Source: an uncultured Lachnospiraceae bacterium
Lineage (GTDB): Bacteria; Bacillota_A; Clostridia; Lachnospirales; Lachnospiraceae
Direction: 5' to 3'
Assembly: GCA_902780985.1 (NCBI GenBank)
Contig: CACZHN010000002.1
Coordinates: 1 to 36,430, forward strand
Length of the DNA: 36,430 nt
Position numbers and translations under genes: made by a program. Shown piece after piece: positions 2,264 to 23,305 of the stretch (position 1 is its first letter; each line of letters begins with the position of its first letter). A model generated the notes under the pieces. That model worked only from the letters and a program-made list of their open reading frames with translations. It searched no databases and was not told the origin of the DNA.

Positions 2264-2353
2264 ATGAGAACATATCATAGATTTACATGTAACCATATGT
2301 GTTGTTGTAAGGCTGTATGTAGGAATATGGTCTGTTTTTCGTATACTTTATGA
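2264..2353 (+). CDS. Cys-rich leader peptide of a cysteine attenuator
   Basis: A 29-codon frame, too short for most gene finders, starts at ATG 2264 with a perfect AGGAGGT 6 bases upstream (2251-2257). Six of its 29 codons are Cys: codons 9, 13, 14, 15, 19 and 24, with three in a row at 2300-2308. Such a run is what a ribosome-stalling leader needs to sense charged tRNA-Cys. It stops at 2351-2353, just before a mutually exclusive antiterminator/terminator pair and the cysK-nifB-nifX operon. Possible -10 boxes are TATAAG (2228) or GATAAT (2233); the -35 is poor. Cysteine leader peptides that act by attenuation are known in actinobacteria; the mechanism here is inferred from structure. Confidence 0.82.
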   Translation: MRTYHRFTCNHMCCCKAVCRNMVCFSYTL

Positions 2354-2354
2354 A

Positions 2355-2413
2355 TAACTGTAAATAGCATTAAATGAGAGCAGTTACCATGAAGTGTGGT
2401 GACTGCTTTTTTT
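2355..2413 (+). promoter_or_regulatory. Cysteine attenuator: antiterminator and terminator hairpins
   Basis: TAACTG at 2355-2360, immediately after the leader stop codon, is complementary to CAGTTA at 2381-2386. The same CAGTTA is part of the left arm of a terminator stem (AGCAGTTACCA 2379-2389 with TGGTGACTGCT 2397-2407, one wobble, then T7). A ribosome finishing the leader would cover TAACTG and allow termination. A ribosome stalled at the Cys codons around 2300-2308 would leave it free, forming the antiterminator and permitting transcription into cysK, nifB and nifX. Confidence 0.8.
2379..2413 (+). terminator. Regulated intrinsic terminator of the attenuator
   Basis: An 11-bp stem (one G-T pair) with a 7-base loop is followed by seven T. 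It lies inside the leader of the cysK operon, 27 bases before the cysK start, which marks it as an attenuator terminator and not the end of a gene. Confidence 0.85.
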
Positions 2414-2440
2414 AATGATATAAAACTTAGAGGGAGAAAA

Positions 2441-3376
2441 ATGGGCGACATTAAGAAGATTGCGTTGGAACTTATAGGCGGGACACCTATCCTGAATATC
2501 AGCAGATATGCTGAGAGAAAGGGTATTACAGAAACGACATTACTGGCTAAGCTTGAGTACCTGAATCCGACAGGATCCGTAAAGGACCGTATAGCACTGG
2601 CAATGATCGAGGATGCCGAAGAGAAGGGAATACTGAAACCGGGGGCTACTATCATAGAGCCCACCAGCGGGAATACAGGTATAGGACTTGCTGCTGTGGC
2701 TGCGGCAAAGGGGTACAGAACCATACTTACGCTGCCTAAAACCATGAGTTACGAGAGAAGAAATATGCTTAGGGTATACGGTGCGGAACTTGTGCTGACA
2801 GACGGAGTAAAGGGGATGAACGGGGCGATAGAAAAAGCCCGTGAACTGAATGAAGAGATTAAAGACTCTGTTATCTTAGGCCAGTTTATAAATCCGGCAA
2901 ATCCGGAGATTCACAGGAAAACAACCGGTCCGGAAATATGGGATCAGACAGATGGGAAAGTTGATATTTTTGTGGCAGGTGTCGGTACAGGCGGAACAAT
3001 AACCGGAGTAGGAGAGTATTTAAAAGGACAGAATCCCGATATAAGAGTCGTAGCTGTAGAACCTGCCGCAAGCGCAGTTCTTTCAAAAGGAAAGCCCGGT
3101 CCTCACAAGATACAGGGTATAGGTGCCGGCTTTATTCCGGAGGTACTGAATACCGAGATTTATGATGAAGTGATAACAGTCGGTAACGAGGAGGCTTTTG
3201 AGGAAGGAAGAGCCATAGTGGTATCGGAAGGAATACTTGTCGGAATCTCGGCGGGAGCGGCACTTAAAGCGGCAGAGAAGATTGCAAAGAGACCGGAGAA
3301 TAAAGGAAAAACCATAGTTGTTCTTCTGCCGGATTCCGGTGACAGATATCTGTCCACGGCGTTGTTTAATAATTAG
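2441..3376 (+). CDS. cysK: Cysteine synthase (O-acetylserine sulfhydrylase), copy 1
   Basis: A PLP enzyme that makes cysteine from O-acetylserine and sulfide in the cytoplasm. The Schiff-base lysine is Lys48 in [15 protein letters not shown] at 75-80 binds substrate carboxylate; GTGGT binds PLP phosphate; [10 protein letters not shown] is near the C-terminus. Its 311 residues match the usual CysK length. ATG 2441 is preceded by AGGGA. An upstream GTG at 2396 lies within the terminator hairpin and is rejected. It is the first structural gene behind the cysteine attenuator, with nifB 15 bases downstream. It is closely related to the copy at 4770-5705. A thiol other than sulfide could be the true nucleophile. 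Confidence 0.92.
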
Positions 3377-3391
3377 AAGAAAGGAAGCAGA

Positions 3392-4264
3392 ATGTCAAAC
3401 ACATATAAAGATTTACAAAACTCACATCCATGTTTCGGCGGACACAGGAATAATGCGGGAAGAATACATCTTCCGGTCAGTCCGGGATGTAATATTGCAT
3501 GTCGCTTCTGCGATAGAAGTATCAATGATGTGGAAGAAAGACCCGGTGTAACATCAAAAGTGTTAAATCCGGAAGACTGCGAGAATATATTAAGAAAAGC
3601 TCTGGAAATCTGTCCCGACATAAAGGTTGCGGGAATAGCAGGACCGGGAGACACCCTTGCTACAGACAGAGCATTTAAGACATTTCGTATAGTAAAAGAA
3701 AAGTTCCCTGATCTTATTAAATGTATGAGTACAAACGGTCTTCTGCTCAGTGAAAAGGCTGATGAGGTGATAGATATAGGGATTGATTCTCTGACCGTAA
3801 CCGTTAATGCCGTCAATCCGAAGATCGAAGCAAAACTGAACGCATATATCATATATCACGGCGAAAAAATAGAAGGCGAAAAGGGTGCGGAGATACTCAT
3901 AAAAAATCAGCTCGAAGGTATCAGAAAAGTCGCGTCCGCCGGTATAACCGTAAAGGTCAATACAGTGCTGGTCCCTGAGATCAATGGGAATCATATAGAA
4001 GAGATTGCGAGAACGGTAAAGGAAGCCGGAGCAAAAATATATAATATTATCCCGCTTATTCCTCAGCATGAGCTGAAAGATTATGCGGCTCCGACTTGCC
4101 CCGAAATCGATGAGGCACGTATCAAGGCGTCCAAATATATAGATGTATTCAGACATTGCCAGCATTGTCGTGCAGATGCGGTGGGTGTTCCGGGTAAATC
4201 CGAATTCGGAGATCAGATATATCAGAGGCGTTTAAATGTAAAGGAGACCTTCTCGCATGGATAA
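3392..4264 (+). CDS. nifB: NifB-like radical SAM cofactor maturase
   Basis: NifB builds the [Fe8S9C] core of nitrogenase cofactors from Fe-S clusters and SAM. The hallmarks are present: HPCF at 12-15, the radical SAM triad Cys33-x3-Cys37-x2-Cys40, ERPGV downstream, and the C-terminal HCQHCRADAVG (Cys256, Cys259). At 290 residues it is the short form without a fused NifX domain. That domain is encoded by the next gene, which overlaps its end by 8 bases. It lies 15 bases after cysK, behind the cysteine attenuator, which puts cofactor synthesis under cysteine control. Presence of NifB implies that at least one of the D/K pairs carries a NifB-derived cofactor, unlike protochlorophyllide or F430 reductases. 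Confidence 0.9.
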   Translation: MSNTYKDLQNSHPCFGGHRNNAGRIHLPVSPGCNIACRFCDRSINDVEERPGVTSKVLNPEDCENILRKALEICPDIKVAGIAGPGDTLATDRAFKTFRIVKEKFPDLIKCMSTNGLLLSEKADEVIDIGIDSLTVTVNAVNPKIEAKLNAYIIYHGEKIEGEKGAEILIKNQLEGIRKVASAGITVKVNTVLVPEINGNHIEEIARTVKEAGAKIYNIIPLIPQHELKDYAAPTCPEIDEARIKASKYIDVFRHCQHCRADAVGVPGKSEFGDQIYQRRLNVKETFSHG

Positions 4265-4628
4265 TGAAACATATCGTGTTGCAGTCGCTTCAAGTGATGG
4301 CATAGTGGTTAACAGTCATTTCGGAAAAGCCGGGATTTTTCATATCTACGATGTTAATGATAACGGTGATATTAAGCATGTAGAGGAAAGAAGATTAGAA
4401 CCGGTATGTAACGGCGGAAACCACACGGAAAACAGGCTGAAGGAGAACTTTGAAAAACTGCGGGATTGCCGATATCTTCTGGTAAGCAGGATAGGCGGCG
4501 GAGCGGCTGCTGTTGCTGAAGATATGGGAATCATACCGATGGAACTTGCGGGCGTGATAGAAGATTCGATATCTGAGTTAATTAAGTACAGAAAACTTCA
4601 GGATCTTTTTAACGAATACGGGCAGTAG
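4257..4628 (+). CDS. NifX/NafY-like cofactor-binding protein, copy 1
   Basis: A 123-residue protein of the dinitrogenase iron-molybdenum cofactor family. Members bind or shuttle NifB-type cofactors between NifB and the catalytic protein. The family signature appears as VNSHFGKA near residues 18-25, in the position of the conserved histidine motif, and the length is that of a single domain. The ATG at 4257 lies inside the end of nifB, so the genes are probably translationally coupled. In many organisms the same domain is fused to the NifB C-terminus, so this pair looks like a split version. A paralogue with a Cys-rich insert lies at 10546-10947. Confidence 0.82.
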   Translation: MDNETYRVAVASSDGIVVNSHFGKAGIFHIYDVNDNGDIKHVEERRLEPVCNGGNHTENRLKENFEKLRDCRYLLVSRIGGGAAAVAEDMGIIPMELAGVIEDSISELIKYRKLQDLFNEYGQ

Positions 4629-4656
4629 ATCTTAGGTGATAAAAAAACCTTATGGA

Positions 4657-4684
4657 TTGATATAAAATACCTATATTTTACAAA
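4657..4684 (+). promoter_or_regulatory. Candidate promoter for cysK copy 2
   Basis: TTGATA (4657-4662) and TACAAA (4679-4684) are spaced by 16 bases in the 141-base gap before the second cysK. A GTGATAA word, as seen in the lysR upstream regions, lies just upstream at 4636-4642. No Cys leader peptide is seen here, so this cysK copy is probably not attenuated like the first. Confidence 0.4.
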
Positions 4685-4769: not shown

Positions 4770-5705
4770 ATGTCAGAAATAAAAGAAAGTGCATTGGAAC
4801 TTATCGGTGGAACACCGATATTAAAACTTAACGGTTATTCCAAAAAGGCCGGTATAACAGGTGTAAATATTCTTGCAAAGCTTGAATATTTAAATCCTGC
4901 CGGATCGGTCAAGGACAGAATAGCTCTTGCGATGATAGAGGATGCCGAGAAGAGCGGAAAGCTAAAACCGGGAGCCACGATCATTGAGCCTACATCTGGA
5001 AATACAGGTATCGGACTTGCAGCAGTAGCGGCAGCTAAGGGCTACAGAGCAATTCTTACTCTTCCGGATACAATGTCAGTTGAGAGAAGAAATCTGCTTA
5101 AGGCATATGGTGCCGAAATAGTTCTTACAGAAGGCGCAAAGGGTATGAAGGGCGCTATAGCAAAGGCAGAAGAACTCGAGAAGGAAATCGACGGTGCGGT
5201 TATCCTCGGTCAGTTCATAAATCCTTCAAACCCTGCGATTCATAAGGCAACAACCGGTCCTGAGATCTGGGAGCAGACAGACGGAAAGGTTGATTACTTT
5301 ATCGCCGGTATCGGTACGGGCGGAACGATCACAGGTGTAGGACAGTATCTTAAGGAGAAGAATCCTGACGTTAAGGTCATTGCGGTAGAGCCCGCAACCA
5401 GTCCGGTTCTTTCAAAGGGTACAGCCGGTGCACACAAGATTCAGGGCATCGGAGCCGGATTTGTTCCGGAGGTTCTTGATACAAAAGTATATGATGAAGT
5501 ACTTGCAATCGAGAATGAAGATGCATTTGCGGAAGGTAAGAGCTTTGCTGTTGCAGAGGGAATCCTTGTCGGTATCTCATCAGGTGCAGCTCTTAAAGCA
5601 GCTAAGATAATAGCTTCAAGAGAAGAGGCAAAGGGTAAGAACATAGTGGTTCTTCTTCCTGATTCGGGAGACAGATACCTTTCGACACCGCTTTTTTCAA
5701 ACTAA
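4770..5705 (+). CDS. cysK: Cysteine synthase (O-acetylserine sulfhydrylase), copy 2
   Basis: A second full-length CysK of 311 residues, with Lys48 in NPAGSVKDR, TSGNTG, GTGGT and [10 protein letters not shown] all intact. It is closely similar to the first copy along its length, implying duplication. GGAAGGGAG precedes the ATG at 4770. It has its own candidate promoter and is followed by a terminator, so it forms a single-gene unit between the nifB operon and the nifH-like operon. The pair may differ in regulation (attenuated versus LysR-controlled) or in preferred sulfur donor. Only biochemistry can tell sulfide from a thiol. Confidence 0.92.
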   Translation: MSEIKESALELIGGTPILKLNGYSKKAGITGVNILAKLEYLNPAGSVKDRIALAMIEDAEKSGKLKPGATIIEPTSGNTGIGLAAVAAAKGYRAILTLPDTMSVERRNLLKAYGAEIVLTEGAKGMKGAIAKAEELEKEIDGAVILGQFINPSNPAIHKATTGPEIWEQTDGKVDYFIAGIGTGGTITGVGQYLKEKNPDVKVIAVEPATSPVLSKGTAGAHKIQGIGAGFVPEVLDTKVYDEVLAIENEDAFAEGKSFAVAEGILVGISSGAALKAAKIIASREEAKGKNIVVLLPDSGDRYLSTPLFSN

Positions 5706-5718
5706 GTTATTTTAAACC

Positions 5719-5812: not shown

Positions 5813-6688
<876 letters not shown>

Positions 6689-6752: not shown

Positions 6753-7652
6753 TTGACTATATTACAGTTAAAATATGTCATTGCCATAGATGAAGAATGC
6801 TCTATGAGGAAGGCTGCCGATAAACTTCATATTTCACAACCGGGATTATCGATAGCCATAAGAGAACTTGAAAATGAAATAGGTATTCAGATATTCCAAA
6901 GAGTTCATAATGGTGTTGTGACTACGGTTGCCGGAAAAACATTTCTTGCCAATGCCAGAAGTGCAGTAGAAGCATATGAAATTTTCGAGAACAAGTATTT
7001 GAATACTGCAAAGGCTAAACCCACATTTTCGGTTTCAATGCAGCATTATACATTTGCGGTCAATGCTTTTGTCGATTTAATAAAAGAGAATGGGTACGAT
7101 GATTTTCAGTACTCCGTAAAAGAGACACAGACAAACGAAGTTATTGAGGATGTCAAGATAATGACATCGGAAGTCGGAGTTATAGCTTTAAGTGATTACA
7201 ACAGAGCTAAGTTTAACAAGATCTTTGCTGCAAGTTTTCTGGAGTTTCATGAACTCTTTGAGTGTAATACTTACGTATATCTGTGGAAGAATCATCCGCT
7301 GTCTGATCGTGAAGAGCTCTCTCTTGAAGAACTGCAGGACTATCCTTGTATGGTTTTTGATCAGGGAGAAAACAGCTCGTTCTATTTCAGAGAAGAGGCT
7401 CTTGCAACCTATGATTATAAAAGGGTCATAAGCACCAATGAAAGAGCGACCTCCATGGAGCTTATGATAGGATTGGACGGTTATGCCGTAGGTTCCGGAC
7501 TCCTTGATGCGAGTCTCAATACTTCGGAGTTTAAAGCCATCAAATTAAAGGAAGAAGAGACTCTGACCCTGGGGTATATTGTCAGAGCCGGAAGCGGACT
7601 TTCAAATCTTGCAAGGGCGTACATCAGAAAGTTGGAAGAGTATAGGTTGTAA
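6753..7652 (+). CDS. LysR-family regulator inside the nif-like operon
   Basis: A 299-residue LysR regulator with an N-terminal winged helix-turn-helix (SMRKAADKLHISQPGLSIAI) and a full effector domain. The start is TTG at 6753, supported by a perfect AGGAGG 6 bases upstream; there is no nearby in-frame ATG. It lies between nifH and D1 on the same strand with gaps of 64 and 43 bases, so it is probably co-transcribed. It is a more distant paralogue of the two lysR genes at 1264 and 20414, which places three related regulators around one pathway. It may sense the imported substrate, while the flanking pair sense general sulfur status; this is speculation. Confidence 0.83.
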   Translation: MTILQLKYVIAIDEECSMRKAADKLHISQPGLSIAIRELENEIGIQIFQRVHNGVVTTVAGKTFLANARSAVEAYEIFENKYLNTAKAKPTFSVSMQHYTFAVNAFVDLIKENGYDDFQYSVKETQTNEVIEDVKIMTSEVGVIALSDYNRAKFNKIFAASFLEFHELFECNTYVYLWKNHPLSDREELSLEELQDYPCMVFDQGENSSFYFREEALATYDYKRVISTNERATSMELMIGLDGYAVGSGLLDASLNTSEFKAIKLKEEETLTLGYIVRAGSGLSNLARAYIRKLEEYRL

Positions 7653-7695: not shown

Positions 7696-9159
7696 GTGGC
7701 GGTTAATGTTGAAGTAGGAGATATAGGTACCAGAGAGACCCGTCTCGGATCCATTACGGGATATAAGGGAGACCTGAGGGATATAGCACAGAAAAGTGAG
7801 GACAGTACTCTGAGGGGCTGCTCGAGATGCTTTTCTCAGTCCAGTTCATGTCTTAATGGCTGCGTGCTTCCCATGATCGGACAGATGCGTGATGTTGCGG
7901 TAATCCTGCATGGTCCTGCAGGGTGTTCGTGTAACGGATCCCAGCAGAGCACAAAGATTATCGCAGAGCAGCTTGGTATCAAGAATACGACAGTTTATGT
8001 CGGTACGGATATCAACGAAAAAGATACAATATTCGGCTCATCGGATAAGCTGAAGGATATTATTCTTGAGGTTTACAGAAGATATAGTCCTAAGGCTATC
8101 TTTGTCGGAAATGCATGCGCTACCGGTATCATAGGTGAAGATATCGACAGTGTTGTTGAGGAAGTAAAACCGGAAATAGATGTTCCGATAGTTGCCACTC
8201 ACTGTGAAGGATTCAAGTCAAGAATCTGGGCGAGCGGTTTTGATATTCAGGATCAGGCACTTCTTCAATCAGGTATTATCCAGCCGCCAAAGCAGAAGAG
8301 AAACACGGTAGTATTCAAAAATTTCTTTGGCAGTGCCAGACAGGAGATTACGGAAATATTTGACAGGATCGGTCTTGAACCTGTGTTCCTTTGGGCAAAT
8401 ACTTCGGTAGAAGAGCTTTCACATATATCCGAAGCAACATGTACTACCAGCGTCTGCAGCACGCTCGGAAATTATCTCGGAAATGCACTTGAAGATCTTT
8501 ACGGAGTGCCGTATATCAGAACAATCAATGCCTGCGGTATTACGGGATTTGAAACATGGTTCAGAGAAATTGCGAAGGTTGCAGGTAAGGAAAAAGAAGC
8601 AGAAGAGTATATCGCCGAACAGAGAGAAAAATACCTTCCTAGGCTTGAAGAGCTTAAGAAGGAACTTGAAGGTAAGACTGCCGTAATCGGTATGGGCCCG
8701 GGATATACGTTTGAGGTTACCAGAGTATTAAACGAACTCGGAATGAAAGTGACATGGGGTCTTGCATGGCACTATGACAAGAAATACGACGATGGCGCGG
8801 TACCACCCGCTATGGAATATCTGCTTGAAAACGATATAAACTTTAATGTTGCGATTTCCGATCAGCAGAATTATGAGGTAATGAATATTCTCAATAAATA
8901 TCAGCCTGATATATATCTTTCAAGACATCCGGGTTCAACCGTATGGGCTACCAAGCTTGGAATACCCGCATATTTTGTCGGAGATGAATATGAGATCTTC
9001 GGATACAAGCATACAGTTGAATTTGCGGAAGGCCTTATATATGCCATGAAGAACAGAAGCTTTGAGGAAAGTATGGCAAAGCATTCCTCCTTACCTTATA
9101 CCAAGTGGTGGTATGAGCAGGAAGTAGATGCTTTCTTCGAAGCAGGAGAAGAAAAATAA
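7696..9159 (+). CDS. Nitrogenase component 1 alpha-like protein (NifD-like, D1)
   Basis: A NifD-family subunit of 487 residues starting at GTG 7696, with AAGGAAGGGAG upstream. P-cluster-type ligands align as Cys52, Cys77 (HGPAGC) and Cys141 (GNACATGIIGED). The FeMo-cofactor ligand Cys275 aligns without gaps to Cys254, 16 residues before YGVP. The NifD catalytic region CEGFRGVSQSLGHH is replaced by CEGFKSRIWASGFD, so His195 becomes Phe182 and Gln191 becomes Trp178. The position of the cofactor ligand His442 is Gly. Extra cysteines (42, 45, 56, 79) surround the P-cluster site. It should bind a NifB-derived cofactor but with different substrate chemistry from N2 reduction. Partner: K1, 34 bases downstream. 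Confidence 0.88.
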   Translation: MAVNVEVGDIGTRETRLGSITGYKGDLRDIAQKSEDSTLRGCSRCFSQSSSCLNGCVLPMIGQMRDVAVILHGPAGCSCNGSQQSTKIIAEQLGIKNTTVYVGTDINEKDTIFGSSDKLKDIILEVYRRYSPKAIFVGNACATGIIGEDIDSVVEEVKPEIDVPIVATHCEGFKSRIWASGFDIQDQALLQSGIIQPPKQKRNTVVFKNFFGSARQEITEIFDRIGLEPVFLWANTSVEELSHISEATCTTSVCSTLGNYLGNALEDLYGVPYIRTINACGITGFETWFREIAKVAGKEKEAEEYIAEQREKYLPRLEELKKELEGKTAVIGMGPGYTFEVTRVLNELGMKVTWGLAWHYDKKYDDGAVPPAMEYLLENDINFNVAISDQQNYEVMNILNKYQPDIYLSRHPGSTVWATKLGIPAYFVGDEYEIFGYKHTVEFAEGLIYAMKNRSFEESMAKHSSLPYTKWWYEQEVDAFFEAGEEK

Positions 9160-9193: not shown

Positions 9194-10492
9194 ATGGCTA
9201 AATTATTAGATACACCAAGATATAAATGCGCGCTGGCTGCAATCCAGTCGATTCAGGGTATGAACAGAATACTTCCTGTACTGCATTCGGGTCCCGGATG
9301 TGCCGCAAAACTATCGGATGAAGTGGGAAACTCGGGATATTTATCGCCGAATATATATCCGTGTACGGGAATAAACGAAAAGGATGTTGTGTTCGGAGGC
9401 GTTAAAAAGCTCGATTCAACAATAGCAAATTCCTTAAAAGTTATAGATGCGGACATGTATGTAGTCCTGACAGGCTGTATACCCGAAATTATCGGAGATG
9501 ATACGGGCGAAGTCGTAGATAAATACAGAGATGCCGAGAAGCCTGTAATATACGCTCCGACAGCAGGTTTTAAGGGTAATAATTTTATCGGACATCAGCA
9601 GGTCATTGATGCGATCGTTGATCAATATTTAAAGCCTTCCGATGAGAAGATAGAAGGCCTGGTAAATATATGGGCAGATGTTCCGCTTCAGGATCCGTTC
9701 TGGCTGGGAGATATTGAACAGCTTGAAAAACTTGTAAGTAGTCTCGGACTGACTCCGAATTCGATATTCGGTTACCATAGCGGTATAGATGCTATAAATC
9801 GTGTTCCGAAAGCACAGTTTAACCTCCTGGTTTCTCCGTGGGTAGGTCTTAAGTCAATGGAGAATATGAAGAAGAAACTGGGTATCGATTATCTTCATTG
9901 TCCGGTACTTCCTATCGGAGCTGCGGAGACAACGAAATTTCTCAGGAAGGTAGGAGAATTTGCCGGAGTATCCGAAGAGAAGATAAAGAGTGCTACGGAA
10001 GAAGGAGAGAAGTACTTTTATCACTATATAGAACGTTATGCGGATCTTTTCCTTGAGAGCCGAGTTATGCCAAAGAAGTTCTCGGTTGTAGGTGATTCTT
10101 TCACTGCACTGGGCATAACCAAGTTTTTGGTAAATGATCTCGGCCTTATTCCGGCAACTCAGTTTGCTGTTGAAGATGTGCCTAAGCAGTACAGAAAACT
10201 TATTGAGGACGAGTTTAAGGATCTCAATTACGGTATTGAATCGGAAATCTGGTTTGAGTCGGATGGTTACAAAATCCATAATAATATACGCGAAACCATA
10301 TATCATGGACATCCTCTTATATTGGGTGCACATTATGAAAAGATTTTGGCAAAGGAACTCGGAGGCTTGTTCCTTGCAGTATCATGGCCGGTAAATGACA
10401 GGCTTGTCATGAACGGATCCTATGTCGGATATGATGGAGGTTTAAGACTGTTGGAAGACATCTATTCGGTTGCAAGGCAGAGATTCTATTAA
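9194..10492 (+). CDS. Nitrogenase component 1 beta-like protein (NifK-like, K1)
   Basis: A NifK-family subunit of 432 residues, shorter than true NifK (about 520) because the long N-terminal extension is missing. The three P-cluster-type cysteines are Cys12 (PRYKCAL), Cys36 (HSGPGC) and Cys95 (LTGCIPEIIGDD), with a Cys12-Cys36 spacing of 24 against 25 in NifK. GAGAGGGG precedes the ATG. It follows D1 by 34 bases, in the canonical D-K order. Together they should form a heterotetramer with one interface cluster per D-K pair. It is paralogous to K2 at 11771-13102, with which it shares the QPRF/TPRY start and the SYVGYDGG / SYAGYRGG end motif. Confidence 0.87.
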   Translation: MAKLLDTPRYKCALAAIQSIQGMNRILPVLHSGPGCAAKLSDEVGNSGYLSPNIYPCTGINEKDVVFGGVKKLDSTIANSLKVIDADMYVVLTGCIPEIIGDDTGEVVDKYRDAEKPVIYAPTAGFKGNNFIGHQQVIDAIVDQYLKPSDEKIEGLVNIWADVPLQDPFWLGDIEQLEKLVSSLGLTPNSIFGYHSGIDAINRVPKAQFNLLVSPWVGLKSMENMKKKLGIDYLHCPVLPIGAAETTKFLRKVGEFAGVSEEKIKSATEEGEKYFYHYIERYADLFLESRVMPKKFSVVGDSFTALGITKFLVNDLGLIPATQFAVEDVPKQYRKLIEDEFKDLNYGIESEIWFESDGYKIHNNIRETIYHGHPLILGAHYEKILAKELGGLFLAVSWPVNDRLVMNGSYVGYDGGLRLLEDIYSVARQRFY

Positions 10493-10545
10493 TGTAGTCT
10501 AAATCGGATTCCTGAAGCAGATAGTCATAAATGGAGGAAAGGTTT

Positions 10546-10947
10546 ATGTCATATAAGATTGCAGTTGCTTCTTCAGGCGGAGAAATAATTGATTCTCATT
10601 TTGGAGCTGCCGGGGAGTTTAGAATATACGAGGTCGAGAACGAAACAGTTAATTTTGTCGAGACAAGAAAAATCGAGAACGTGAATGAATGTAAAAAGGG
10701 CTGCGGCGGCGGGACCGGTGGCTGTGGTAATGATCCTGTCATCGCGGCAAAGATAGATGTTATAGCAGATTGCAGATGCGTTCTTGCGGGAAGGATAGGC
10801 TTTCAGATTCAGAAACAGCTTGAGAGACACGGAATCGCTCACTTTGAACTGACCTGTGGAATTCAGGAAGCATTTGATAAGCTGATACCTTATTTTTACA
10901 AAGTTGATAATCATATAACACTGAGAAATTTTGCCAAAGAGAAATAA
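10546..10947 (+). CDS. NifX/NafY-like protein with Cys-rich insert, copy 2
   Basis: A 133-residue member of the iron-molybdenum cofactor-binding family, with the IDSHFGAAG motif near residues 18-26. Unlike the first copy it carries a Cys-Gly-rich stretch, [13 protein letters not shown], in mid-domain, and further cysteines in DCRC and LTCG. These could hold a cluster or help in cofactor transfer. The start is taken at ATG 10546, where GGAGGAAAGG (10532-10541) is the ribosome binding site; an in-frame ATG at 10531 overlaps that site and is unlikely. It lies between K1 and the ABC ATPase in the same operon, and probably serves cofactor insertion into one of the D/K pairs. Confidence 0.8.
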
Positions 10948-10990
10948 GTGTAAAAGTGAGGCGAGGCAGCAAAAGAAAGTTGGTGATCAT

Positions 10991-13102: not shown

Positions 13103-13118
13103 TTTTGGAGGAAAGACA

Positions 13119-15793: not shown

Positions 15794-16507
15794 TTATAAT
15801 GAGCTGACAGAAGGCTGGTGAATAAATATTTTCTTCTCGAGTGCTTCGACTGCTATGGTAAACAGGGCTATTAAAACAACGTATATTATTGCTACTGCGG
15901 TATATGCTTCGAGAAAGCAGTAACTCTGATTAGCTGCAATAAGAGAGCCTTGCATTATTTCCACGACACCGATCGAACTGAGGAGAGGTATACCTTTAAG
16001 CACGCCGATTACATTGCTTATATATGATGGAAATGCAACCGGAAACATCTGAGGTAATACGATATCTTTTAAGGTCTGTGTTGTGGTAAGACCTATTGAC
16101 TGCGCTGCCTCAAACTGAATCTTAGGGACAGATGAAAGGGCTCCTCTGAAGCTTTCGTTGACTCCGGTCATGGTTCCGAGAGTCATTACCAGATATGCTA
16201 TCGGGTTGTAGCCTACATCGTTGACAGTCAGGTTGACATTAAGCGAGGCAGCGATGTCGTTGAAATACATTACATACAGCAGATGAAATATAAGAAGCAG
16301 GACCATCATCGGTATTGCACGGTATACGGTGAAAAAAGCCACCAGCACCTGTGATATTACCGGAATCTTATAAAATATGATTATGGCAACAATGAGTGAC
16401 AGGACGGTGCCGATAAAAACCGAAATAAATGCAATTTTGATGGTTATGGGTATATTTGTAATGCCTGAGATCAGACATTTTATAAAATCGGAATAATTGA
16501 AATCCAT
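15794..16507 (-). CDS. ABC transporter permease, amino acid/cystine type (second permease)
   Basis: A 237-residue membrane protein of the HisMQ-type permease family, with about five hydrophobic segments. The coupling loop that contacts the ATPase is recognisable as GALSSVPKIQFEAAQSIGLT followed by VLPQMFPVAFP. It is paired with the permease at 16549-17235, probably as a heterodimeric channel, in an operon with two binding proteins. No ATPase gene lies nearby on this strand. The ATPase at 10991-11746 in the nif-like operon is the likely partner. Confidence 0.85.
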   Translation of the reverse strand: MDFNYSDFIKCLISGITNIPITIKIAFISVFIGTVLSLIVAIIIFYKIPVISQVLVAFFTVYRAIPMMVLLLIFHLLYVMYFNDIAASLNVNLTVNDVGYNPIAYLVMTLGTMTGVNESFRGALSSVPKIQFEAAQSIGLTTTQTLKDIVLPQMFPVAFPSYISNVIGVLKGIPLLSSIGVVEIMQGSLIAANQSYCFLEAYTAVAIIYVVLIALFTIAVEALEKKIFIHQPSVSSL

Positions 16508-16548: not shown

Positions 16549-17235
16549 TTATGTTCCGAAGGTGTATTTCTTGTCAATGAATTTGAAGAGATATCCTACG
16601 GCAATACTTATAAGCGCATATACAAATGCAACATAGACATATGCTTCCAGCACATGGCCGGTGGAAGCGGCAATAGTCTTTGTACGTCCGAGGAAATCCA
16701 TAATTCCAAACATGTAAGTTACCGAGGAGGATGCAAATATCCATATTATAGCGGTACCGTAAAGCGGTATGGCCACTTTGACAGCCTGAGGAAAGATTAC
16801 ACGTCTGAATGTCTGCAACCTGGTAAGTCCCACTGAATAAGCTGCTTCGCTCTGAAGTTTCGGTACAGACTGAAAGGCTCCTCTGAAGATCTCACCCATA
16901 AAGGCAGCTTCATTAAATGCAAAGGCGATTTCAATAAATACAATCTTGCTCCAGGAATTTACATCTATTCCGAACAGTTTATATGCCGCGAAAGGCACAT
17001 AGTAATAAACAAGAAAGATAAGAACTATGAAAGGAACCGATCGTATTATTATGGTATACACATGAAAAAACTGACTCAGTACGGGAACTTTATATACTCG
17101 GATAGCAGCAACGATGAGGCCGAAGATTGTTCCGAGCAGTATTGCGATAAGTACGACTTCAAATGTTACGGGAAGATATTTATTCAACTTGGATATTACA
17201 TCCCAGAGTCTTTCCCAGCTGAAATAGCGGTTCAT
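16549..17235 (-). CDS. ABC transporter permease, amino acid/cystine type (first permease)
   Basis: A 228-residue HisMQ-type permease with about five membrane segments and the ATPase-coupling loop GAFQSVPKLQSEAAYSVGLT followed by IFPQAVKVAIP. It starts 25 bases after the stop of the first binding protein and ends 41 bases before the second permease, so the genes are co-transcribed. It is homologous to its neighbour but distinct enough to suggest a fixed heterodimer. The imported substrate is not determined by sequence. Confidence 0.85.
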   Translation of the reverse strand: MNRYFSWERLWDVISKLNKYLPVTFEVVLIAILLGTIFGLIVAAIRVYKVPVLSQFFHVYTIIIRSVPFIVLIFLVYYYVPFAAYKLFGIDVNSWSKIVFIEIAFAFNEAAFMGEIFRGAFQSVPKLQSEAAYSVGLTRLQTFRRVIFPQAVKVAIPLYGTAIIWIFASSSVTYMFGIMDFLGRTKTIAASTGHVLEAYVYVAFVYALISIAVGYLFKFIDKKYTFGT

Positions 17236-17260: not shown

Positions 17261-18130
17261 TTATTTTCCGGCATCCCATTTTTCTCTCAGTTGATCGATG
17301 GTTCCGTCATCGATCAGTTCCTGAAGAGCTTTGTCCCATTCATCACGAAGTTCTTCATTTCCTTTTTTAAATACCTGATATACCGGATTGCTGATTACAG
17401 GTTCACCTACGAGTTTATAGACATCACCGTACTTTTCATTAACCTGCTGAATGGCAACCTTGGTATTAATGAATGCTGCAATGGTTCCGTTTTTTACGGC
17501 TTCAATATTAACTTCGTCGTAAGGTGTTCCGTTTATCTTTTCGAGTACAAGATTCTGCTCGGGATGTTCTTCGGCATACTTGATCCAGAACTGTCCCCAT
17601 ATAGTAGTTGCGTCATCTGCATTAATGTGAACATCCTGAAGCTGGCTTATGTCGGTGATATCACTGTCAGCGGATGTTACAAGGTATACATATTGAGTAT
17701 TGTAAGGAACGTTGGAAAATACATATCTTTCACCTCTTTCTTCAGTGAAGGATACTTCCCATGTTCCGAGATCGCTTCTGCCTGTTTCGAGTGAAGCAAA
17801 GAATGCGGACATATCTGCTGAAATATCGAATTCCACATCATATCCTATTTTCTCTGCCACAGCATTTATAACATCAACATCGTAACCGGCAAGATTGTCA
17901 TTTTCGTCTATAAAAAGAAAAGGGTACCAGTCGGCACCGATGGAAACAGTTAATGTTCCTTTCTTATTGCCGGTATCTTCCGGATTATCGGAATTTGCCG
18001 ATGCGACATTCGCAGCGGAAGATGCTTCATTACCGTTATCGGTTGTGCGTGAGCCGCATCCGACAAGTAATAATGATGTGGTAACAGCAGTGATCGCAGC
18101 GATAAGTAATTTAGATAATTTCTTTTTCAT
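17261..18130 (-). CDS. ABC transporter solute-binding lipoprotein, copy 2
   Basis: A 289-residue family 3 binding protein, first gene of the minus-strand transport operon. The lipobox LVGC has Cys25, followed by a low-complexity linker and a two-lobed domain (GYDVDVINAVAEKIGYDVEFD). The shared C-terminal FKKGNEELRDEWD marks it as a paralogue of the protein at 14892-15749. Its promoter, TTGGAC-N18-TATAAT, lies back-to-back with that of the CysK homologue on the plus strand, suggesting shared control of uptake and sulfur assimilation. Confidence 0.86.
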   Translation of the reverse strand: MKKKLSKLLIAAITAVTTSLLLVGCGSRTTDNGNEASSAANVASANSDNPEDTGNKKGTLTVSIGADWYPFLFIDENDNLAGYDVDVINAVAEKIGYDVEFDISADMSAFFASLETGRSDLGTWEVSFTEERGERYVFSNVPYNTQYVYLVTSADSDITDISQLQDVHINADDATTIWGQFWIKYAEEHPEQNLVLEKINGTPYDEVNIEAVKNGTIAAFINTKVAIQQVNEKYGDVYKLVGEPVISNPVYQVFKKGNEELRDEWDKALQELIDDGTIDQLREKWDAGK

Positions 18131-18338: not shown

Positions 18339-19325
18339 ATGAGTAAGATTTATGAATCAATTACAGAACTGGTCGGAAACACACCGCTTCTTCATCTTAA
18401 CGGTTATGAAAAGAAATACAGTCTTAATGCCAGAATTTATGCAAAGCTTGAGTATTTCAACCCAAATCAGAGTTCAAAGGACAGGATAGCTGTGTCAATG
18501 ATAGAGGACGCAGAAAAAAGAGGTTTGATAAAGCCCGGTGATAAGATATGGGAAATGACAAGCGGAAATACCGGAATAGGCGTTGCGGCAGTAGCAGTTT
18601 CAAAGGGCTATAAAGTAAGGATACTTCTCGAGGATGATGCCAATGAGGAAAGATATCAGGCAATCAGGGCATTTGGCGGCGAAGCAGTGGCGTTCAGCGA
18701 GGATCCGGCTCTGAAAAAGGCATTGGATAATCCGGATTACAGTTTTGTATATGCGGTAAAGAAGTTCAAGGAATCTATAGTAAGTGAGAACAGAGACATA
18801 TTTTTCCTGGATCAGGATCACAATGCCGTTAATCCGTTGACGCACGAGAGAACAACGGGACCTGAAATATGGAAGGATACCAAGGGGGATGTTGATATAT
18901 TTGTTGCCGGAACCGGAACAGGAGGAACGATATCCGGTGCGGGTAAATATTTAAAAGAACAAAATGAAAATATAAAGATCATTTCCGTTCAGCCGGGGCC
19001 TGACACAAGAAAGAATCTTGAAAATCCGGACGGTATAGGAATTCCGGGAATACATGCACTTGACTGTATACCGGAGGAAAGAATTCCGCAGACCATGAAT
19101 ATGGATATAGTTGATGAATTCTTCAATGTGGAGAGTGATGAATCAAAGCAGGCAGCAAGAGATGTTGCCAGAACAGACGGAATACTGGTCGGAGAGTCTT
19201 CGGGAGCGGCACTGTTTGCTGCAAGAACACTGGCGGAGAGAAAAGAAAATGAAGGGAAAAGCATAGTTGTAGTATTCCCGGATACAGGTCTCAGATATTT
19301 TTCAACCGGATTATTTGAAGAATGA
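18339..19325 (+). CDS. Divergent cysteine synthase-family PLP enzyme, copy 3
   Basis: A 328-residue member of the CysK/CBS fold II family, longer than and clearly diverged from the two copies upstream. The PLP lysine is Lys47, but in NPNQSSKDR where CysK has NPxGSVKDR. TSGNTG and GTGGT are kept. The substrate-loop sequence QFINPANP of CysK is replaced by a segment around DQDHNAVNP, and extra residues are inserted before it. The end is PDTGLRYFST. GGAGG precedes the ATG. It is divergent from the transporter operon through paired promoters. It may use another thiol or acceptor, for example methanethiol or a different O-acylated amino acid. I would not name it cysK without an assay. Confidence 0.85.
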   Translation: MSKIYESITELVGNTPLLHLNGYEKKYSLNARIYAKLEYFNPNQSSKDRIAVSMIEDAEKRGLIKPGDKIWEMTSGNTGIGVAAVAVSKGYKVRILLEDDANEERYQAIRAFGGEAVAFSEDPALKKALDNPDYSFVYAVKKFKESIVSENRDIFFLDQDHNAVNPLTHERTTGPEIWKDTKGDVDIFVAGTGTGGTISGAGKYLKEQNENIKIISVQPGPDTRKNLENPDGIGIPGIHALDCIPEERIPQTMNMDIVDEFFNVESDESKQAARDVARTDGILVGESSGAALFAARTLAERKENEGKSIVVVFPDTGLRYFSTGLFEE

Positions 19326-19351: not shown

Positions 19352-20260
19352 ATGAGAAAAACTTATTTCATTACTATAATAACCAATATTGCTCTTGGCT
19401 ATGCTTATATTTCGGGTAAGATACTTCTTGATAAAATGACATCTGTTCAGATACTGCTTGCAAGGTTTGCACTGGCAACAGTTGTTCTGAACATTATATA
19501 CAGAAAAGACAAGATCAGGTTTAATATAAAAGAAGAAATATTATATGCCGCTGCGGCATTTCTGGGAAATTATCTTTCTCTATGGCTTAATTATCAGGCA
19601 CTTCATTACACGACAACAACAAATGTGGGAGTTCTGGGAGCCATAGTTCCGATGATGACCGGAATTCTGGGATACATTTTGTTGAAGGATTCAAAGCCGG
19701 ATGCGTTTTTCTGGACGGGATGCGTATTTGCCATGCTGGGTGTTGTACTGATCTATATAGGAGATGGTTTTGAGCTCCATATCTTAGGAGATACTATAAT
19801 TATAGCAAGCGGTTTTTTTACATCGCTTTATCTGGTTGTTCTCGGAAAGATCACTAAATTCGGGCATTCGGTTGGTGCAACCGGTAAGAGAATATCATTT
19901 TACAGTTTTATTATTCTGGGAACAGTGTATCTTTTGTCGGGGGATTCGCGCGACTGGTCCGGGCTTATGGATGCACATATGATCTTTAACTTATTGATAT
20001 TGGGAATCGGCATATCGGGGCTCTGTCTTGTCGGATACAGTTACTCAACGAAAGTACTGGGGGCGGGAAGAGCGAGCGTTTTTTCATATCTCTGCACGAT
20101 ATCCAGTGTTATATTTGCATCGGTTTTCATAGGCGAAACTGTCGGAATTAACATAGTTTTGGCAACTGCACTGATCATTGCGGGAACCTTTATCTCTGAG
20201 CAGGGAAGAAATATTATACATCTTTTCAAGCAGAGAAGATTTGAAAATCCCGGAGCCTAG
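19352..20260 (+). CDS. EamA/DMT-superfamily transporter
   Basis: A 302-residue integral membrane protein with about ten hydrophobic segments, arranged as two EamA repeats typical of the drug/metabolite transporter superfamily. It follows the third CysK homologue by 26 bases and should be co-transcribed. Escherichia coli EamA (YdeD) exports O-acetylserine and cysteine, so overflow export of a cysteine-pathway metabolite or product is an attractive role here. The family is broad, however, and substrate cannot be assigned from sequence. Confidence 0.82.
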   Translation: MRKTYFITIITNIALGYAYISGKILLDKMTSVQILLARFALATVVLNIIYRKDKIRFNIKEEILYAAAAFLGNYLSLWLNYQALHYTTTTNVGVLGAIVPMMTGILGYILLKDSKPDAFFWTGCVFAMLGVVLIYIGDGFELHILGDTIIIASGFFTSLYLVVLGKITKFGHSVGATGKRISFYSFIILGTVYLLSGDSRDWSGLMDAHMIFNLLILGIGISGLCLVGYSYSTKVLGAGRASVFSYLCTISSVIFASVFIGETVGINIVLATALIIAGTFISEQGRNIIHLFKQRRFENPGA

Positions 20261-20271
20261 AGATAGCTTAA

Positions 20272-21319
20272 CGATTATTCATGCTTATAACCGGCGATAA
20301 AAAATAAGCTATGGTGAAAGAAATGTTAATGTGATAAACTCACTCTAATCATTGTATCCTGTGATATGTAGTGTTTTTATATACAGGTTACTGATTTCAT
20401 CAGGGAGTTTATTATGACAATTATACAATTAAAGTATGTGATAGCACTCGCAAATGCTTCATCCATGCGGGAAGCTGCGAGCAGACTTTTTGTATCACAA
20501 CCGGCTTTATCCGCAACCATCAGGGAACTGGAGGATGAGCTGGGTATAAAAATCTTTGAGAGAAACAATAAAGGAATTGCCTTGACAGATGAAGGAAGAG
20601 AATTCCTGATCTATGCCAAGCAGGCAGTAAGTCAGTATCAGGTGATTGAAGACAGGTATGCGGGAAATGAACGGAATAAGGTCCATTTTTCCGTATCCAT
20701 GCAGCATTATGTTTTTGCGGTGAAGGCCTTCCTCAATGCAATCAGAGAGTTTTCCTATTCCGGATATACATACAGTGTGCAGGAAACGAAAACGGATGAA
20801 GTCCTGCTGAGCGTTAAGGACATGAAGAGTGAGATAGGAATAATATCGTATGCCAAGGGGAATGAGAAGATATTCCGGAAACTTTTCAGAGAGTATGGTC
20901 TGAGCTTTCATCCGCTCATGGTGAGAGATACTTATGCGTATCTGTGGAAAGATCATCCGCTTGCAGACAGAACGGAAATATCGCTGGAGGAGCTGAAGGA
21001 GTATCCGTGTATATCCTTTGACCAGAGCAGTGAGAGCGAGTTTTATCTTCCGGAGGAGGCTCTGGGCGAATATGATTTCGTTAAAAGAATAAAATCAAAT
21101 GACAGGGCAACATCCATGGAGCTTATGGCGGGAATGAACGGTTTCTCCATAGGTACGGGAATCATAACGGAGAGTGTCGCCATAAGCAACGACCTTGTAT
21201 GTATCAAACTGAAAGAGGATGATCCGCTTACAATCGGGTATATTATAAGAAACGGACATATTCTGAGTGAGATCGGGCAGAAATATATAGAAGAACTTGA
21301 AAAGTATAAAGTATTATAA
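20272..21319 (+). repeat. Direct repeat copy 2 (lysR plus upstream region), partner at 1122-2172
   Basis: Same orientation and arrangement as the first copy, 19,150 bases away. The upstream sequence keeps TTAT-N8-ATAA at 20285-20300 and GTGATAA at 20331-20337, as well as the AGGGAG ribosome binding site. The second GTGATAA word has become GTGATAT (20361-20367). Confidence 0.85.
20414..21319 (+). CDS. LysR-family transcriptional regulator (copy 2 of the flanking pair)
   Basis: A 301-residue LysR regulator, about 90% identical by eye to the one at 1264-2172. The DNA-binding helix region is almost unchanged (SMREAASRLFVSQPALSATI), so both should recognise the same operators. Differences are scattered over the effector domain and the extreme C-terminus. 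ATG 20414 has AGGGAG 7 bases upstream. Unlike the first copy it is followed after 13 bases by a cysteine desulfurase gene, with which it is probably co-transcribed. Two functional copies may give dosage, or heterodimers with slightly different effector response. Confidence 0.85.
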   Translation: MTIIQLKYVIALANASSMREAASRLFVSQPALSATIRELEDELGIKIFERNNKGIALTDEGREFLIYAKQAVSQYQVIEDRYAGNERNKVHFSVSMQHYVFAVKAFLNAIREFSYSGYTYSVQETKTDEVLLSVKDMKSEIGIISYAKGNEKIFRKLFREYGLSFHPLMVRDTYAYLWKDHPLADRTEISLEELKEYPCISFDQSSESEFYLPEEALGEYDFVKRIKSNDRATSMELMAGMNGFSIGTGIITESVAISNDLVCIKLKEDDPLTIGYIIRNGHILSEIGQKYIEELEKYKVL

Positions 21320-21332
21320 TAAGGAAACGGCA

Positions 21333-22475
21333 ATGAAGAAATATATTTATTTAGATAATGCCGCTACGACACAGGTAAAGGAAGCAGTCTTGCAGAGCAT
21401 GCTTCCTTTTTTTAGAGAGATATACGGAAATCCTTCCGCAGATTATGCATTTGCCCGAGAGGCAAAAGAGGCGGTGGAGAAGGCTCGAGTAAAAATCGCG
21501 TCTCTTATCGGTGCAAAGGCTGATGAGATATTCTTTACATCAGGCGGGAGCGAATCCGATAACTGGGCATTAAAAGCTGTGGCGGAGGCGAATGAACATA
21601 AGGGAAAACATATAATCACAAGTAAGATTGAGCACCATGCCATACTTCATACCTGTGAATATCTGGAGAAAAAAGGATATGAGATAACCTATCTGGATGT
21701 GGATCAAGACGGAAAAATACGACCGGACGAGCTGGAAAAATCCATCAGAAATGATACAATCCTTATATCCGTTATGGCGGCAAATAATGAGATCGGGACT
21801 ATCGAACCCATTACCGAGATAGGAAGGATAGCACATGAAAGAGGTGTGCTTTTCCATACGGATGCGGTACAGGCTTACGGTCATATACCTCTTAATGTTA
21901 CGGACATGAATACGGATCTTCTCTCGGCCAGCGGCCATAAGTTCGGAGGACCGAAGGGTGTGGGATTTTTATATGTCAGAGAGGGCGTCGGAATATCATC
22001 CTTTATTCACGGAGGAGCACAGGAGAGAAGCAGGAGAGCCGGTACATATAATACCCCCGGAATAGTAGGAATGGGAGAAGCGGCGGCTATAGCCAAAGTG
22101 AAAATGGAAGAAAATCTGAGAAAACAGACTCTTTTGAGGGATTATCTTATCGGACGGGTGCTGAGAGAGATTCCGGATGTGAGATTAAACGGTCATAGAT
22201 ATGACAGACTTCCGGGTAATGCCAATTTCAGCTTTGCATCCGTAAAAAGCGCATCTCTTTTGATACTGCTGAATAAATTCGGCATATGCGCCTCCGGCGG
22301 ATCGGCATGTACATCGGGCTCGACCGAACCGAGTCATGTACTTACGGCAATCGGACTCTCAAGAGATATTGCAGAGGGCGCTTTACGGCTTACTTTGTCT
22401 GAGGAAACAGATAAGGAAGAGATTGATTTTGTGGTTGATAATCTGAAAGAGATAACGGAAAGATTAAGAAACTGA
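21333..22475 (+). CDS. Cysteine desulfurase, NifS/IscS family
   Basis: A PLP enzyme that takes sulfur from cysteine to form a persulfide for Fe-S cluster assembly. The protein has 380 residues. EHHAIL and the AVQAYGH region contact PLP; the Schiff-base lysine is Lys203 in SGHKFGGPKG; the catalytic cysteine is Cys326 in GSACTSGS, in the family's exposed loop. AAGGA precedes ATG 21333; a longer frame from 21297 overlaps lysR and is rejected. Location at the end of the nif-like block suggests a supply of sulfur for the many clusters of that system (NifS-like role), although it could serve general Fe-S assembly. No NifU/IscU scaffold is visible in the window. Confidence 0.9.
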   Translation: MKKYIYLDNAATTQVKEAVLQSMLPFFREIYGNPSADYAFAREAKEAVEKARVKIASLIGAKADEIFFTSGGSESDNWALKAVAEANEHKGKHIITSKIEHHAILHTCEYLEKKGYEITYLDVDQDGKIRPDELEKSIRNDTILISVMAANNEIGTIEPITEIGRIAHERGVLFHTDAVQAYGHIPLNVTDMNTDLLSASGHKFGGPKGVGFLYVREGVGISSFIHGGAQERSRRAGTYNTPGIVGMGEAAAIAKVKMEENLRKQTLLRDYLIGRVLREIPDVRLNGHRYDRLPGNANFSFASVKSASLLILLNKFGICASGGSACTSGSTEPSHVLTAIGLSRDIAEGALRLTLSEETDKEEIDFVVDNLKEITERLRN

Positions 22476-22516
22476 GATTTAACCTTTGTGTACATTTGAA
22501 AGGACAGACAGTTACA

Positions 22517-23305
22517 ATGAGTGAAATAAAAACCCGATACGGGAGTTTTATCCCGTACAGCGGTGAAGTTGAATTAAGAAAAAAGAATAAGGAACCGGTC
22601 ACTTATCATGAAAACGGTGAGATAGCGAGTATCTATTTTGAAGATATACAGAAGGTTAATACGCCTCTGGGAGAAATTGATGCGGAGTATCTGACCTTCT
22701 ATCCGGACGGATCTCTGAAGAGACTCTTTCCGTCCTACGGCCAGCTTAGCGGTTACTGGACGGAGGATGATGAATACCGTCTGGCACCGGTGGCGGAACT
22801 CACCTTCTTCGGTCGGACTTTCAGGGTGCATCCTTTATGTATCGCATTTTATCCGTCGGGCAAAGTTAAAAGCTTTACGATATGGAACAGAGATACTATT
22901 TCCGTGCCGACAAAATACGGAGAAGTGGAAAGTAATTTCGGATTCGATCTTACGGAAGACGGAAAACTGAGATCCGTTGAGCCTTCATTTGGGGCAAAAC
23001 TGGAGACGGAGAAAGGTGTGATATATCCTTTTGATACCGATAACTACCGTCTGAGTGCCGAGAACAATTCCCTTGTTTTTGATGAGGAGGGGGATATTGT
23101 GAGCGTTAAGACATTAAGGACGGGACTTAAGGTTTCGGCCGGGGCCGGCATAATAAATATACGGGCATGTAAGGCACAGGACCCGTTGACCGGGTTTGAG
23201 AGACTGTTTCCTCTGAGTTTACATATCAGAGGGGGACTCGTCGAGGTAACCTGCCTTGATAAGATTAAAGAATCCTTTCCGGCGGATGAGGTTGAATTTA
23301 TCTAA
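22517..23305 (+). CDS. Unknown protein with repeated beta-strand units (MORN/YwqK-like)
   Basis: A 262-residue protein with no signal peptide or membrane segment. It contains several repeats of about 50-60 residues around a TPLGEIDAEYLTFYPDGSLK-type unit: a strand, a turn with xPDG or xPSG, then K-S/R-hydrophobic. This resembles MORN or YwqK-like repeats, but I do not recognise a family with known function. The start is uncertain: ATG 22517 is chosen although its ribosome binding site is weak; a TTG at 22496 is possible. It follows the desulfurase by 41 bases and may be in its operon, so a link to cluster or sulfur handling is conceivable but unproven. Confidence 0.65.
   Translation: MSEIKTRYGSFIPYSGEVELRKKNKEPVTYHENGEIASIYFEDIQKVNTPLGEIDAEYLTFYPDGSLKRLFPSYGQLSGYWTEDDEYRLAPVAELTFFGRTFRVHPLCIAFYPSGKVKSFTIWNRDTISVPTKYGEVESNFGFDLTEDGKLRSVEPSFGAKLETEKGVIYPFDTDNYRLSAENNSLVFDEEGDIVSVKTLRTGLKVSAGAGIINIRACKAQDPLTGFERLFPLSLHIRGGLVEVTCLDKIKESFPADEVEFI

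Follow-up and report, generated by a model that had tools for sequence, protein, structure and literature searches.

The 36,430-nucleotide stretch of an uncultured Lachnospiraceae genome analysed here (GenBank assembly GCA_902780985.1, contig CACZHN010000002.1, positions 1 to 36,430, hereafter the window) carries two nitrogenase-like pairs of a D (alpha) and a K (beta) subunit, D1/K1 and D2/K2. These belong to two families that lie beside the methylthio-alkane reductase (MAR; MarBHDK) of Rhodospirillum rubrum, and they are placed within a block for cysteine synthesis, which occurs commonly among gut anaerobes. A literature search, chiefly of open-access papers, brought no description that we recognised of this two-pair cluster with the cysteine synthase CysK. 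The block probably encodes an anaerobic organosulfur-scavenging system with a role in sulfur acquisition, in which ATP-driven reductive C-S cleavage feeds CysK; the identity of the cofactor, the C-S cleavage and the direction of flow are inferred. The structure, cofactor and C-S activity of MAR itself are established (PMC12552129).

The genes for D1 (7696..9159), K1 (9194..10492), K2 (11771..13102) and D2 (13092..14576) lie on the plus strand, and their products match PF00148 with E values from 1.9e-58 to 1.4e-75. For all four proteins the best solved relative is MAR, by a wide margin. D1 scores 281.8 bits against 9fmg_A and 137.9 against the next non-MAR chain in the PDB, K1 scores 360.7 bits against MarK and 76.2 against the next chain, and the corresponding values for K2 are 357 and 69. 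An AlphaFold model of D2, built with 63 homologues, superposes on MarD.

Residues were read along MarD as given in its structure entry, in which C270, R428-H429, H194-W195, F199, H375 and C73-Q74 match the positions in PMC12552129. Both D1 and D2 keep C66, C91, C158, C270, W195, F199, H375 and R428-H429, and three P-cluster cysteines are retained in both K1 and K2 (C32, C56 and C121 of MarK numbering in K2). The Arg-His (RH) loop, which has been proposed as a hallmark of MAR (PMC12552129), is present in all 80 of the D1 relatives described below. Near the S2B site D1 has Ile and D2 has Met in place of H194, and where MarD has C73-Q74 they read P-M and T-I, respectively. At the sites of NifD Gln191 and His195 (MarD 195 and 199) both window D proteins have W and F, where NifD of NGR234 has Q and H. 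Aligned with NifD His442 both have G, the reference NifD and VnfD sequences carrying H.

The putative assembly protein is of the NifB radical S-adenosylmethionine type (3392..4264, plus strand). It gives 302 bits over 266 residues to the solved NifB 7bi7 and has the HPCF, CxxxCxxC, CxSTNG and CxxCRADA motifs, the first of which is found in 65 and the other three in all 67 of the NifB proteins from the related loci; none of these 67 has the Cys that solved NifB carries in its CExRPGVT stretch. Its score against TIGR01290 (265.8 bits) lies below the full-length cut-off of 343.65, a model that includes a NifX part, and in the window that part matches separate genes for NifX-like cofactor carriers (4257..4628, PF02579, E 4.8e-17; 10531..10947, E 1.4e-14; both plus). 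The NifH-type reductase (NflH; 5840..6688, plus) is accepted by the TIGR01287 nifH model with 462.7 bits (cut-off 394.35). Given the retained ligand residues and the NifB match, D1/K1 and D2/K2 are predicted to carry a P-cluster and an [Fe8S9C] cluster bound as in MAR.

Trees of the D proteins (71 rows) and K proteins (53 rows) were built with references from Nif and Vnf only, and the tree program warned of long outgroup branches. In the D tree three families, Mar, D1 and D2, are united in one clade (100/98), and all of them have the RH loop. Within it R. rubrum MarD groups with three rumen proteins from genome G001 (100/100), D1 groups with its relatives and a Treponema protein (100/100), and D2 and its relatives form another clade (100/100), the branching order among Mar and D2 being uncertain (91/33). 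The same groups appear in the K tree, where MarK joins two G001 proteins and K1 and K2 of the window fall outside. Because their D proteins form separate clades, D1 and D2 are, by sequence, two sister families of Mar rather than members of it. A preliminary description of this DNA had suggested a possible new member of the superfamily, distinct from Mar in its gene set, and both trees bear out families distinct from Mar; the window proteins stand beside, not inside, this clade of known function, which leaves its reading standing. Its likening of the system to Mar in concept only fell short, since the two are also linked by descent and by their cofactor ligands. Nor is the system peculiar to the window, being common in gut and rumen anaerobes.

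The second strand of evidence is the company that these genes keep. The plus-strand order is a LysR-type regulator ((a), 1264..2172, PF00126/PF03466), CysK1 (2396..3376, PF00291, E 1.9e-77), NifB, NifX1, CysK2 (4770..5705), NifH, a second LysR-type regulator ((b), 6753..7652, PF00126/PF03466), D1, K1, NifX2, an importer ATPase (10931..11746), K2 and D2. CysK2 is a canonical cysteine synthase A (TIGR01139, 442 bits, cut-off 350.95), and the ATPase is nearest to the L-cystine TcyN type (PRK11264, 319.6 bits, below the cut-off of 406). Downstream of D2 the minus strand carries, in order of position, solute-binding protein a (14892..15749, PF00497, E 1.5e-32), permeases A (15794..16507) and B (16549..17235; both PF00528) and solute-binding protein b (17261..18130, PF00497, E 3.4e-29), both binding proteins being of the polar amino acid family. 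The plus strand then resumes with CysK3 (18339..19325), an EamA-type exporter (19352..20260, PF00892, E 5.5e-27), a third LysR-type regulator ((c), 20414..21319, PF00126/PF03466) and a NifS-type cysteine desulfurase (21297..22475, TIGR03402, 551.3 bits, cut-off 530.75). CysK3 is a divergent paralogue (TIGR01136, 307.4 bits, below the cut-off of 344.15) with an altered GIGAGF loop and PxTMS motif, and it retains the pyridoxal phosphate lysine and TSGNTG. All these gene classes are open throughout. From NifH to D2 eight genes follow one another on the same strand with intergenic gaps of -17 to 64 bases, CysK1, NifB and NifX1 are likewise on one strand with gaps of 15 and -8 bases, and CysK2 is flanked by gaps of 141 and 134 bases.

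This inventory agrees with that of the preliminary description (one NifH, one NifB, two NifX-like proteins, two D/K pairs, three CysK, an importer, NifS, EamA and three LysR). The block that it placed at 2264..23305 is real, with the first LysR gene (1264-2172) lying just outside. NifE, NifN, NifV and molybdate genes, which it had reported as absent, were not found among the 30 window proteins searched with Pfam, a search that had the smaller open reading frames and the last 3 kb outside it.

Scanning the GTDB species genomes yielded 250 D1 relatives, and the 80 best were retained as loci reaching up to 10 kb to each side of D1, many of them ending at contig edges; families of neighbouring genes were named from one representative each. 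These 80 come mainly from Lachnospiraceae, Ruminococcus and Treponema of the rumen and gut. K1 comes after D1 in 79 of them, and a CysK stands immediately 5' of D1 in 65. Where NifH is upstream (69 loci), CysK alone separates it from D1 in 56, nothing in 12, and CysK with another gene in one, the intervening CysK being in most loci a paralogue of the window CysK3 type, which retains the pyridoxal phosphate lysine and TSGNTG and has altered GIGAGF and TMS regions. A CysK most like CysK2 of the window stands immediately 5' of NifB in 44/65 loci. The loci also hold NifX (73), NifB (65), MetB/C-type enzymes (33), the C-S lyase PatB (32), an Rrf2 regulator (24; the nearest named model is CymR, below its cut-off), NifS (21), SsuA-like binding proteins (18, and one further neighbour, in locus L058, above the SsuA cut-off), polar-amino-acid binding proteins (16), NifU (11) and CysE-like proteins (9).

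Searches of plasmids brought up mostly rhizobial nif genes, and also two informative plasmids. On a Treponema saccharophilum plasmid the order MetY-CysK-NifB-NifX-NifH-LysR is followed farther on by both D/K pairs and an ATP-binding cassette (ABC) importer. The near-identical gene order in other genomes and on this plasmid shows that the arrangement in the window exceeds chance. The plasmid (pTS2, locus L081) holds the whole system, with an IS30 transposase within it and type I-C cas genes adjoining; given this location and the transposase, the system may move between phyla. Two contigs from metagenome-assembled genomes labelled Bacteroidales/Paludibacteraceae (L075, L079) carry D1 and K1 of 64% and 65% identity with CysK 5' of D1, through transfer or misbinning; Prevotella bryantii is also named in PMC4995403.

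Genome content also points to sulfur. Two sets were used, namely 20 hand-picked genomes with D1 and a 200-genome sample of the Lachnospira multipara family, in which a D1 carrier was defined by 800 bits or more. In the sample the sulfite/nitrite reductase domain PF01077 occurs in one of 13 D1 carriers and in 95 of 187 other genomes (Fisher p 0.0028), taking the carrier and PF01077 results to come from the same 200 genomes, as their handles agree. With all nitrogenase-like matches at E 1e-50 the counts are 3/23 versus 93/177 (p 0.0003); both p values are uncorrected for kinship or genome size. In the chosen set PF01077 was not found in 13 of 20 genomes, L. multipara ATCC 19207 included. Twelve of these 13 genomes, and one of the seven with PF01077, have a canonical CysK no farther than about 10 kb from D1, as judged manually from coordinates; in the thirteenth, G001, the stretch stops at a contig edge. 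In L. multipara, G009 and G017 (3/20 genomes) the sole two CysK-family genes (E 1e-60) lie in the nitrogenase-like cluster. Together the neighbourhoods, the sulfite reductase pattern and the CysK linkage support the sulfur-assimilation role put forward in the preliminary description, and C-S bond reduction, its likely chemistry, is supported too.

The system can be pictured as follows. NifB would build an iron-sulfur-carbide precursor cluster, which the NifX-like proteins would carry and which both D/K pairs would receive directly, with no need for NifEN, molybdenum or homocitrate. NifH would then, with ATP hydrolysis, pass electrons to the P-cluster and on to the [Fe8S9C] cluster, held by one Cys and the His of the RH loop. 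There an organosulfur compound, whether imported or salvaged, would undergo reductive cleavage of a C-S bond, with sulfide (or a thiol) set free. CysK, with O-acetylserine, would capture this as cysteine, from which methionine would be made via transsulfuration and Fe-S clusters via NifS. The two D/K pairs would share one NifH and NifB and serve different substrates, D2/K2 being paired with the polar-amino-acid importer.

As to the imported compound, the importer beside D2/K2 is of the polar-amino-acid type and the nearest solved chains of both window binding proteins include YtmK and Lmo2349 (75.7-85.5 bits), a hint that the substrate may be a sulfur amino acid or derivative; the top-scoring solved chain for both is AncQR, a reconstructed ancestor of amino acid binders. 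Cystine, cystathionine, djenkolate and S-methylcysteine are imported by transporters of the YtmK type. The two binding proteins were also examined for an absent amine-binding Asp as a clue to the substrate, and this was discarded, as the aligned cystine-type YtmK seems (by eye) to be without the Asp too. SsuA-like importers at other loci suggest that different D/K pairs may use different substrates. In G001, a rumen metagenome-assembled genome with the best D1 match, we found 14 PF00148 matches. They include D1/K1, two D2/K2 units that both adjoin permease-permease-binding protein sets, an additional pair and, on a different contig, three Mar-type D proteins. A broader picture, to which we give about an even chance, is that gut anaerobes hold modular organosulfur reductases with NifH, NifB and NifX in common and exchangeable D/K units, every unit having an importer and a C-S substrate of its own; these would be the main reduced-sulfur route where sulfite reductase is missing, and the stool Clostridiales 'Cluster III nifH' would be at least partly theirs.

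Several observations weigh against a sulfur-scavenging role. The kinds of importer around D1 differ (SsuA-like, polar amino acid, SulP family and MetQ-like), so that no single substrate is fixed. The loci are kin by descent, are therefore non-independent, and are the best 80 of 250. PF01077 is present in seven of the 20 chosen carriers, including Lachnospiraceae bacterium 3-1, so D1 is not merely a substitute for sulfite reductase; these seven are also the largest genomes (4.3-5.6 Mb versus 2.2-3.8 Mb for the other 13), and genome size may thus account for part of the pattern. MetY is above its cut-off in 19/20 carriers, and methanethiol could thus be the product; as a discriminator between sulfide and methanethiol MetY failed, because presence in nearly all carriers cannot separate the two. 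The cysteine genes could alternatively serve the supply of Fe-S clusters. The AlphaFold model of D1, made with 18 close homologues, had a pLDDT (predicted local distance difference test) of 56.5 and was discarded.

The closest alternative is that the window encodes a strict methylthio-alkane reductase, which would turn methylthio compounds into methanethiol and a hydrocarbon, with MetY rather than CysK making methionine. MAR is indeed the nearest characterised relative of the D/K proteins, the widespread MetY adjoins the cluster in T. saccharophilum, and group IV-A nitrogenase-like genes have been described near methyl-transfer and methionine-salvage genes (PMC10418091). However, D1 and D2 lie outside the 100/100 Mar clade and have altered H194 and C73-Q74 near the S2B site, the genes are interleaved with CysK and not MetY, and in G001 the complete set of Mar residues is found in other D proteins, encoded on a different contig, all of which makes this explanation unlikely. 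A release of sulfite from a sulfonate, as by isethionate reductase (Isr), is a good deal less credible still. SsuA-like proteins are present at some loci, as noted above, and IsrBHDK, which is nitrogenase-like, acts on a C-S bond in sulfur assimilation (PMC11423573), but IsrD is without equivalents of Cys62, Cys154 and Cys275 and IsrB is BciD-like (PMC11423573), while the window D proteins keep all these cysteines and have a partner of NifB type. The hallmark of Isr D proteins, a single Cys88 equivalent and no Cys275 equivalent, is not seen in the window, where both D proteins keep four cysteines; moreover, 12 of the 13 D1 carriers in the family sample are without a PF01077 reductase that could use sulfite. 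A sulfonate might still be reduced all the way to sulfide.

Nitrogen fixation, which has been claimed for the Endomicrobium proavitum enzyme of group IV, with the cysteine genes supplying only cluster sulfur, is very doubtful. The P-cluster cysteines are all retained, Lachnospira and relatives have been named candidate gut diazotrophs from NifH similarity, and E. proavitum, a reported 15N2 fixer, is also without the NifD histidine (both PMC4995403). Yet MAR, with the same ligand set, fails to reduce 15N2 (PMC12552129), W and F replace NifD Q191 and H195, the His442 column is G, and the recurrent neighbours are sulfur genes, with NifEN and NifV not found among the 30 window proteins. Hardly more plausible is a role for D2/K2 as a NifEN-like assembly scaffold for the other pair. 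One NifH and one NifB are common to both pairs, and D2 scores higher against the NCBIfam model nifE (174 bits) than against nifD (135.5 bits); on the other side, K2 lacks the loss of P-cluster cysteines seen in NifN (S, C and A at these sites in NGR234 NifN), a loss that is not universal among scaffolds, as VnfN of Nostoc has C, C and C. As for INDEPENDENCE from NifEN, six of the 20 genomes (G002, G003, G005, G007, G010 and G020) have no PF00148 pair other than D1/K1, and so NifEN is unneeded by D1/K1. A single NifH (E 1e-60) is found in 11 of the 20, and five large genomes (G011, G012, G014, G015 and G016) have extra PF00148 matches of about 347-428 bits that resemble true Nif. Residue comparisons and the trees led us to reject a molybdenum nitrogenase, a NifEN scaffold and Isr.

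An organosulfur-scavenging role also bears on how gut nifH genes have been read. In human stool 44 nifH operational taxonomic units (OTUs) were reported, 39 of them in Cluster IV, and two Clostridiales OTUs of Cluster III, one sharing 98% identity with L. multipara NifH and the other >97% with that of Lachnospiraceae bacterium 3-1, were taken to point to nitrogen fixers in the gut (PMC4995403). Both isolates are among our loci and genomes (L067/G005 and L020/G002, respectively), and each has one NifH, beside D1/K1, with 93% and 88% identity, respectively, between the window NifH and theirs. No PF00148 pair besides D1/K1 was found in either of these two genomes. As this is their sole D/K pair, the inference of gut nitrogen fixers needs revision, and on the simplest reading those gut nifH genes are part of the sulfur system. 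The NifD histidine has been described as missing from L. multipara, strain AE2021 and P. bryantii and as kept by the other Clostridiales of the clade (PMC4995403). In D1 of L. multipara and strain 3-1 alike the His442 column is Ala and the RH loop is present; by this alignment the NifD histidine was not found in strain 3-1. The 15N2 data of that study are unaffected, and other bacteria may be their source. As the NCBI nifH model accepts the window NifH, automatic annotation will go on calling it a nitrogenase.

Set against known systems, the window is most like MarBHDK of R. rubrum (group IV-C; PDB 9FMG, 9D9U), with a NifH-type reductase, a D/K catalytic part and a NifB-type assembly protein (judged by type), all cluster ligands including the Arg428-His429 loop, and the same fold, judged from the D2 model. 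It is unlike Mar in having two D/K pairs outside the Mar clade with changed H194 and C73-Q74, NifX-like proteins, and linkage to CysK and an amino-acid type importer. IsrBHDK of Rhodobacter capsulatus is likewise nitrogenase-like, predicted to be ATP-driven, and of anaerobic sulfur assimilation; unlike the window system it is missing most D cluster cysteines, has a BciD-like radical S-adenosylmethionine protein and releases sulfite (PMC11423573). The E. proavitum 'Nfa' (group IV-A) and heliobacterial NflDK1-5 proteins are, by description, group IV nitrogenase-like too. Nitrogen fixation has been proposed for NfaDK and NflDK1, the E. proavitum claim being repeated in PMC8399215, and the CysK linkage of the window is not described in the parts of those accounts available here. 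Several NflDK with one NifH are reported in Heliophilum, and the same paper reports a Mar clade (PMC9147875); group IV-A genes have been found near methionine and sulfur genes (PMC10418091). The two isolates named for the gut 'Cluster III nifH' of PMC4995403 carry the same D1/K1 system, read there as candidate nitrogen fixation.

With an organosulfur role, two common nitrogenase-like families gain a testable place in the sulfur nutrition of gut and rumen bacteria, and cultured carriers allow direct tests. Our results suggest that carbide-cluster C-S enzymes would reach well beyond Mar. Should they act on an organosulfur compound from the diet, these enzymes would be a new gut source of sulfide, thiols or light hydrocarbons.

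Further nitrogenase-like genes were seen around the same families. On contig 342 of G001 (L105) three D proteins have the full Mar set C73-Q74, H194-W195 and R428-H429, and the build-up of nitrogenase-like genes in this rumen Lachnospiraceae genome is unusual. Contig 111 of G001 (L108) and contig 2 of G004 (L112) carry a distinct NifH-D-K set next to a binding protein and permeases that by eye resemble an ABC importer of iron or heme type. A third D/K family, D3, lies close to D1 in many genomes (L003:19812, L025:7970, L050:5347, L110:3365 and others). Its 20 D proteins in the D tree are without the RH loop and have W195 changed to C and H375 to T; they have a His at ungapped NifD His442 spacing (THVLDGKRPTMGYDG, by eye), the alignment column itself being L. 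D3 possibly has another cofactor mode or is of group IV-A type.

Within the window, scans of 1000-20900 for promoters (51 found, 48.3 expected) and terminators (15 found, 12.9 expected) were at chance level. The LysR genes (a) and (c) are near-copies, 91% identical over 299 amino acids and 83% over about 1,050 bases of DNA, and they flank the entire block in the same orientation, as if duplicated. After NifS, positions 22496-23305 encode a protein with a weak MORN_2 match. An Rfam scan found no RNA family near the nitrogenase-like genes, its sole match being a thiamine pyrophosphate riboswitch (25869-25974, 58.9 bits) that lies 5' of ThiC (26094-27434).

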